Part shown: positions 28,701 through 30,768 of the stretch, piece by piece
Layout of the letters: each line of letters starts with the position of its first letter
Position numbering within the stretch: position 1 is the stretch's first letter
Assembly: GCA_015233785.1 (NCBI GenBank)
Contig: JADFWT010000018.1
Span: 1 to 36,255, forward strand
Reading direction: 5' to 3'
DNA length: 36,255 bases
From: Magnetococcales bacterium
Lineage (GTDB): Bacteria; Pseudomonadota; Magnetococcia; Magnetococcales; JADFWT01
Translations under genes and position numbers: made by a program
The notes under the pieces: generated by a model
Told to the model about the DNA's origin: nothing
The model's input: the letters and a program-made list of their open reading frames with translations, nothing else
Databases searched by the model: none

Positions 28701-29837
28701 ATGCCCATTGTTCGCGACTGCATGCTTCGCAACATCGCCACCTTTGCTCCCTCCACCTCACTGATGGAGGCCATCCGACGCATGTTGCGCCAAGAGATCG
28801 GCCTTGCCGTAGTGCTGGATAACAGCATGGCCCTCACCGGCCTGTTTACCAGCTTCGACCTGATCAAATGGATGGTCCGAGGCAACAACCTGGAGAGCAC
28901 AACCCTGGCGGATGTCCGGGTCTCCGCACCGATTGTGGTCTACGAGAATATGAACTGTCAGGATTTCCTGAAGCTCTACAATCAACGTCGGGTGCGACGT
29001 TTTCCGGTTCTCAACGACGATGAACTGCTCTCCGGCGGTATTCTGGAACAGCAAATTCTCGCCTCCATGCCCCGATCCAATCTGCTGGCACACTATCGCA
29101 TCTCCGACATCATGCTGAAAAAGACCCCCATCATCCAGAAAAACATGGTGTTTTCGGATATGGCGAAAGAGATGGTCTCCACCCATAAGGGGTGCATGCT
29201 GATCTGCGAAGGCAAGAAACTACTAGGGGTGATCACCGAGGATGATCTGCTGCGCGAACGGATCAGCGAGTCCTGGGATCCAAAACGGCCAGCAGGGGAC
29301 TTTATGCAGACCGATCCGCGCACCATCGAAGAGGATCGCGATCTGCTCTACGCCATCGACTTTTTCCAGCGCACCGGATTGCGCCGGGTGGCGGTGGTCG
29401 ATCAGGATAATCAGGTGGTGGGCCTCCTCTCCCAAACTCTGCTACTGAGGCAGATGGCCGACTCGGCCCGCTCTCGTCAGGCGGTTCTTAATCCCGAGGA
29501 TATCACCGAGCCCGCCGTATGGTTTGAGCCGGAAAAGGAACAGACCATTCTGGCCCTTAATCAAGCAGGAGCCTCGCTGCTCAAAATCAATATCTCCGAA
29601 TGGGTAGGACGTCCCATCACCGAGCTGAGCGAAGATCCCAAAATTTGGAGCGCCATCTATACGCTGCTGCGCCACAGCGGCTCGCTGGAGAATATCAGCA
29701 TCAAAATTCGCACCGGCGACGGAAATCAACTCTGTATCTCCAGTCGCTTCAGTCTTATCGATACCCCCACCGGGGAGAGCCGTATTTTCTGGACCATCGA
29801 CAACGTTGACGGCAGCGGTGCCAGTTGCCGGATCTAG
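28701..29837 (+). CDS. Four-CBS-domain protein with C-terminal PAS-like domain
   Basis: Repeated CBS motifs ('MLRNIATFAPSTSLMEAIRRMLRQEIGLAVVLD', 'RRFPVLNDDELLSGGI', 'DIMLKKTPIIQKNMVFSDMAKEMV...GVITEDDLL', 'FMQTDPRTIEEDRDLLYAIDFFQRTGLRRVAVVDQDNQVVGLLSQTLLLR'); C-terminal 'ILALNQAGASLLKINISEWVGRPITELSED...IKIRTGDGNQLCISSRFSLIDTPTGESRIFWTI' is PAS-like. Confidence 0.8.
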   Translation: MPIVRDCMLRNIATFAPSTSLMEAIRRMLRQEIGLAVVLDNSMALTGLFTSFDLIKWMVRGNNLESTTLADVRVSAPIVVYENMNCQDFLKLYNQRRVRRFPVLNDDELLSGGILEQQILASMPRSNLLAHYRISDIMLKKTPIIQKNMVFSDMAKEMVSTHKGCMLICEGKKLLGVITEDDLLRERISESWDPKRPAGDFMQTDPRTIEEDRDLLYAIDFFQRTGLRRVAVVDQDNQVVGLLSQTLLLRQMADSARSRQAVLNPEDITEPAVWFEPEKEQTILALNQAGASLLKINISEWVGRPITELSEDPKIWSAIYTLLRHSGSLENISIKIRTGDGNQLCISSRFSLIDTPTGESRIFWTIDNVDGSGASCRI

Positions 29838-30297: not shown

Positions 30298-30768
30298 ATG
30301 AAACACCACAACGCGCCCCAGGAGCCCTCCCCGGCGCGTTGTCTCTATCCCTCCTGGTATCTTTTTCGCCTGCCCAACCATCAAACCCCTGGCGGATCCC
30401 CTCAGAACACCCCCCAAGGGGACCACCAGACCGAAGATGAACCGATTCACCCTATGCGCTGCACTGCATGCGGCCACGGTATCACCTTTGAGCACCATCG
30501 CATGGCTGTAGACGGCAAGCATGACCACACCTTTTTCAACCCCCACGGAGCGGTCTTTCATCTGGGCTGCTTTGATCAGGCGCACGGCTGCCAAGTGATT
30601 GGAACCCCCAGCAACGACTTCACCTGGTTTGCCGGATATGCCTGGTCTCTGGCCCTCTGCGGCGGCTGTCAGGCACACCTGGGGTGGCAGTTCGATGGGG
30701 TGAAAACCGGGAACGAAGGGCGTTTCTACGCGCTGATCCTGGGGAAGATCCGCCCCGGTCAGGATTGA
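30298..30768 (+). CDS. Cereblon-like CULT-domain protein (thalidomide-binding-domain fold)
   Basis: From Met53 (30454): CxxC (C55, C58) ... 'DFTWFAGYAWSLALCGGCQAHLGWQFDG' with W110, W116, W130 (spacing 6 and 14) and second CxxC (C121, C124). Same arrangement as the cereblon tri-Trp cage and zinc site. The N-terminal 52 aa are of uncertain translation. Confidence 0.88.
   Translation: MKHHNAPQEPSPARCLYPSWYLFRLPNHQTPGGSPQNTPQGDHQTEDEPIHPMRCTACGHGITFEHHRMAVDGKHDHTFFNPHGAVFHLGCFDQAHGCQVIGTPSNDFTWFAGYAWSLALCGGCQAHLGWQFDGVKTGNEGRFYALILGKIRPGQD

Follow-up and report, generated by a model that had tools for sequence, protein, structure and literature searches.

What use a bacterium may have for a stand-alone version of the domain through which cereblon binds thalidomide is the question raised by a small gene in the window, i.e. 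the whole stretch of 36,255 nucleotides analyzed here (contig JADFWT010000018.1 of the Magnetococcales assembly GCA_015233785.1; source genome 3.36 Mb, 364 contigs, 72% complete). The first-pass annotation, made from the sequence alone, had proposed that the gene encodes a bacterial cereblon homologue with a complete CULT-domain signature, and had called the natural role of such proteins in bacteria unresolved, which is consistent with the literature (PMC4287342, PMC4449219). The occurrence of CULT proteins in bacteria has been on record since 2015, and the protein described here (the query) adds a member to a known family. What goes beyond this knowledge is a conserved N-terminal motif in most bacterial CULT proteins and the presence of clpS-clpA downstream of the CULT gene in two lineages.

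Identification of the CULT domain

The ORF begins with an ATG located 7 nt past the stop codon of an upstream gene for a CoA-binding-domain protein (PF13380, 29883-30290). This ATG is the sole start codon 5' of the N-terminal motif within the open frame, and the motif lends further support to it as the true start. The interval first assigned to the protein, 30454-30768, does cover residue 53 to the stop codon, but the ORF itself starts at ATG 30298 (Table 1). The Cys and Trp residues singled out in the first-pass annotation (C55-x2-C58, C121-x2-C124, W110, W116 and W130) were all recovered by translating 30298-30768 on the + strand, as was the quoted string FTWFAGYAWSLALCGGCQAHLGWQF, whose first residue is F108. 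The Trp spacings of 6 and 14 and the 55 residues separating C55 from W110 were likewise correct, and an ungapped alignment with MsCI4 (MGR_0879, the "cereblon isoform 4" of Magnetospirillum gryphiswaldense, PDB 4V2Y) showed equal spacing.

Table 1. Features of the CULT gene and its product, with positions in the window.
Feature	Position	Strand	Basis
CULT-domain protein gene, 156 aa	30298..30768	+	translated ORF, ATG start
N-terminal motif W20-Y-L-F-R-L-P26	30355..30375	+	PSSM tests across lineages
Variable linker, residues 27-52	30376..30453	+	AF2: no secondary structure, block pLDDT 62-72
CULT (beta-tent, thalidomide-binding) domain, residues 53-153	30454..30756	+	phmmer, AF2, Foldseek
First zinc-ligand pair C55-x2-C58	30460..30471	+	invariant in 124/124 sequences
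Aromatic cage W110/W116/W130	30625..30687	+	codons 30625-30627, 30643-30645, 30685-30687; invariant in 124/124 sequences (W110 partly by construction)
Second zinc-ligand pair C121-x2-C124	30658..30669	+	invariant in 124/124 sequences

When compared to all PDB chains using phmmer, the query matched MsCI4 over residues 53-153 (E=5.5e-26), followed by animal cereblons at 1.4e-13 or weaker (human cereblon, CRBN, about 1e-13), and no significant match was found outside CULT proteins; the similarity lies well outside what chance would produce. An AF2 model built with a 67-row alignment reached a mean pLDDT of 85. Within the CULT domain the majority of blocks exceeded 90, and no secondary structure was assigned to residues 1-50; a single-sequence AlphaFold model was uninformative (mean pLDDT 37), and the alignment-based run was used instead. 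The model superposed on MsCI4 (4v2y) with a TM of about 0.9 and an rmsd of about 1.6 A, and the leading Foldseek matches in the PDB were all MsCI4 structures (TM about 0.9), followed by cereblon. The CULT fold that had been proposed was thus borne out by homology search, structure prediction and structural comparison alike. In Pfam, the only sensible match was to Yippee-Mis18 (PF03226; residues 112-135), a related beta-tent family, the tryptophan cage being a CULT feature; at 17.1 it stayed below the cut-off of 26.6, no other Pfam model reached its cut-off, and NCBIfam gave no match above cut-off for the 156-aa protein. The gene is therefore easily missed, and its description as unannotated-looking was apt.

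The pocket residue N81 was, like the zinc ligands and the cage, invariant in 124/124 bacterial relatives; a part of this sequence set was gathered by a pattern containing W110, so that the invariance of W110 is partly built in, and sequence or profile search supplied the members from Magnetococcales, Myxococcota and Spirochaetota. Judged by sequence and model, the query is almost certainly a bacterial cereblon-family protein with a single CULT domain, a predicted zinc-pinned beta-tent with the family's fold and pocket.

MsCI4, like the query, consists of one CULT domain, and the two are alike in zinc pairs, Trp spacings and the pocket Asn-Pro, with about 40% identity over the domain. In contrast to the query, MsCI4 is short at its N-terminus, where both the conserved motif and the linker are missing, it carries Leu in place of C98 while C91 is present, and it has Tyr at the position of Phe132, a residue which we take to be shared between the query and human cereblon. 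A further Cys pair, not part of the zinc site, is formed by C91 and C98, and 97 aligned sequences had both residues; the pair is presumably missing from human cereblon and might have a redox or metal-related role close to the ligand-folding hairpin. The CULT domain of CRBN has the same fold and aromatic cage as the query, but CRBN also possesses a LON domain and binds DDB1, whereas the 156-aa ORF gave no LON match in Pfam and contained no DDB1-binding region. We know of no ubiquitin ligase of the CRBN kind in bacteria.

A conserved motif ahead of the domain

The first-pass annotation had regarded the query as a single-domain protein, which holds in so far as there is one CULT domain, but 52 residues precede it and are partly conserved across phyla. 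Bacterial CULT proteins have been described as made up wholly of the CULT domain (PMC4287342); the partly conserved 52-residue extension corrects this published group description more than it challenges membership. Most N-termini compared extended 30-60 residues upstream of the first zinc Cys, and in most relatives a motif with the consensus hydrophobic-x-hydrophobic-[F/L/C]-[R/K]-x-[P/D] was located about 34 residues ahead of this Cys. It was seen in Magnetococcales, Desulfobacterota, Myxococcota and Spirochaetota. The median distance to the Cys was 34-35 residues, and in two groups the 10-90% range of the motif-to-domain spacing was about 32-37 residues.

A regular expression for the motif matched at the expected distance in 62/82 non-redundant N-termini compared to 12.6 in shuffles (maximum 24 in 1000 shuffles); the expression was picked after inspection of the data, and the fair tests are those on held-out phyla. 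Motif searches run unsupervised on half-splits gave no stable result (z 0.7 to 7.8), so the later tests begin from this expression. With Desulfobacterota and Magnetococcales as its training set, a PSSM recognized the held-out Myxococcota (z=4.7) and Spirochaetota (z=6.9); in the first Myxococcota test a PSSM had likewise shown enrichment, but the plain regular expression had not (4/29). The one cross-test to fail, with the hemD-overlapping loci left out, was training on Spirochaetota and scoring Magnetococcales: z was only 1.5, a value that 19/300 shuffles reach. Overall, 83/110 sequences scored above the 95% shuffle threshold, and the best match in the query beat 99.6% of its shuffled N-termini. 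In Desulfobulbales, where the hemD stop codon overlaps this region, the F-R of the motif was also considered as a by-product of that overlap, and this origin was rejected, since the signal persists without those loci: a PSSM from Desulfobacterota minus the hemD-linked loci gave z=3.9 to 8.7 elsewhere (0/300 shuffles each). In close-pair comparisons pooled over the relatives, dN/dS was lowest in the CULT domain (0.15) and came to about 0.36 in the motif window and 0.44 in the linker, and the extension is therefore translated and moderately constrained.

Distribution and genomic context

CULT was found in 22/48 Magnetococcales genomes examined, and all 22 CULT matches in a 399-genome Pseudomonadota sample fall in this order. 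The domain is also found in Magnetospirillum and one other Rhodospirillales genome, in 24/284 genomes of a phylum sample that includes Myxococcota, in 33/298 genomes of a Spirochaetota sample, and in many Desulfobacterota and one Holophagae genome. A CULT protein near-identical to MsCI4, N-terminus included, is encoded on a contig labelled Stygiobacter (VBWB01000004.1, locus L089), which probably derives from Magnetospirillum and was misbinned. Mobile spread was considered and set aside, CULT being absent from plasmid and phage collections and from viral contigs at the sensitivity used.

In the window, a TfpZ-like gene faces the CULT gene and no protease gene lies near it; upstream of the CoA-binding gene, 28701-29837 encodes a protein in which four CBS domains and a weak match to PAS were found. 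Desulfobulbales carry adk and cobA-hemD upstream of CULT. In several of them (L023, L025, L026, L029 and others) the region around the CULT start runs into, or directly adjoins, the 3' end of cobA-hemD, and in 12 Desulfobulbales loci the CULT domain begins 89-113 nt past the hemD stop. A well-conserved rhodanese gene lies directly 3' of CULT in six Magnetococcales genomes from three families (loci L015/L108, L016/L109, L018/L110, L019/L111, L020/L112 and L114), and in two Magnetococcales genomes a conserved 124-aa protein is encoded after CULT (L106:453-827 and L107:5320-5694). Neighbour clustering and Pfam tallies revealed no operon partner conserved across phyla.

In loci L052 and L070, the next gene downstream of CULT on the same strand is clpS, at a distance of 12 bp and 23 bp, respectively, and clpA then follows; the identities of both genes were confirmed with NCBIfam. 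The two loci belong to Myxococcota-type lineages of different orders, and in a CULT tree of poor resolution they fall into separate supported clades. No clpS was found alongside CULT in the other Myxococcota-type or the Spirochaetota loci examined. Overall, clpS adjoins CULT in only 2 of roughly 145 loci, the other neighbours varying by lineage. By a rough estimate, two such neighbours are unlikely to arise by chance if clpS alone is counted, and carry modest weight if a dozen protease genes are counted. The adaptor idea discussed below came from the architecture of the tail and predates the discovery of the clpS neighbours.

At the genome level, ClpS was present in 31/33 Spirochaetota genomes with CULT versus 136/265 without (Fisher p=6e-7, ignoring phylogeny and genome size). 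On the other side, both ClpS and PIMT are near-universal in Magnetococcales, many CULT-negative genomes included. PIMT turned up in 61/61 relatives searched, and its co-occurrence with CULT therefore carries no information. Two CULT-positive but ClpS-negative Magnetococcales genomes (G006 and G016) were dropped as counter-evidence to a ClpS link: the contig of G016 ends inside clpA, making an assembly gap the likely cause, and G006 gave no full-length ClpA match either.

Proposed function and alternative explanations

The three-Trp cage is predicted to bind a small cyclic imide. The first-pass annotation had proposed binding of glutarimide, uridine or cyclic-imide-like ligands, which would follow from MsCI4. 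Its structures in the PDB include, by their titles, complexes with thalidomide, with deoxyuridine and with many glutarimides, and since MsCI4 and cereblon bind such ligands through an identical pocket, a glutarimide or related cyclic imide is the likely ligand class of the query. The endogenous degron of cereblon is a C-terminal cyclic imide, which PCMT1 (PIMT) can generate (PMC13001092). By analogy, the natural ligand in bacteria would most likely be a cyclic imide, either aspartimide or glutarimide, at the C-terminus of a protein that has been damaged or cleaved; the CULT protein would then serve as a reader of damaged C-termini, and its N-terminal motif, carried on a flexible linker, may pass the captured protein to an AAA+ protease, most plausibly of the Clp type. 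This proposal as a whole, reading of C-terminal cyclic imides with hand-over to a Clp-type protease, is the account we slightly favour. A link of bacterial CULT to any protease is speculative and of low probability at present, and we think it rather unlikely that CULT is a Clp-protease adaptor in the strict sense, a C-terminal counterpart of ClpS with ClpA or ClpX as the docking site of its motif. In the open-access literature, no earlier proposal that bacterial CULT acts with a protease was found.

The adaptors ClpS and SspB comprise a globular degron-binding domain, a flexible tail and a short peptide contacting the protease. They are likened to the CULT protein by function only, as a degron-reading domain combined with a flexible tail bearing a short peptide, and no sequence or fold relation to CULT was found for either. 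The tail motif of the query resembles the tail of SspB, which harbors the XB peptide (PMC3983244), only loosely. Moreover, not every family member can depend on the motif, as it is lacking in MsCI4.

An alternative use of the extension would keep it within the chain, the motif acting as a lid that folds over the ligand pocket upon binding rather than as a tag for docking a partner. The narrow spacing between motif and domain is what docking within the chain would lead one to expect, and would suit such a lid equally well; in full-length human cereblon an N-terminal extension runs along the pocket (PMC4449219). The AF2 model obtained with the 67-row alignment does not position the motif on the domain, but it represents a ligand-free chain, and we regard the lid as a serious possibility, if not the probable one. 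The domain could also act without any protein partner, by sensing or buffering a free small molecule such as uridine, another nucleoside or an imide of similar kind, with the tail relaying its binding. MsCI4 binds deoxyuridine (4v31), ligand binding is needed for one third of the domain to fold (PMC4449219), as would fit a sensor, and the adjacent genes are often metabolic or signalling ones. Against this, no metabolic or regulatory partner gene recurs consistently across phyla, and the endogenous ligand demonstrated for cereblon is a protein C-terminus (PMC13001092), making a pure small-molecule role improbable in our assessment.

The clpS neighbourhood itself might be a product of chance, with the actual partners being lineage-specific, such as the downstream rhodanese of several Magnetococcales. 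The recurrence of that gene in six genomes of three families would agree with this, as would the adk and cobA-hemD genes that Desulfobulbales keep upstream instead. However, the rhodanese link is found neither in the window nor in other phyla, and synteny within an order can reflect plain inheritance; we consider a chance origin plausible but doubtful. Returning to the imide reader with hand-over to a protease, the motif shared at the front end and the protease-gene neighbours in two lineages suggest a testable job for the CULT protein.

Implications for the cereblon family

Drug research commonly relies on MsCI4 as a surrogate for human cereblon. As MsCI4 lacks the motif that most of the family has, studies based on it could not reveal the role of this motif. 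If the motif contacts a protease, a degradation pathway for C-terminal cyclic imides would exist in bacteria, and the purpose of CULT would be testable in ordinary laboratory strains. Should the bacterial CULT proteins indeed be Clp adaptors, the role of cereblon as a degradation receptor would predate the ubiquitin system.
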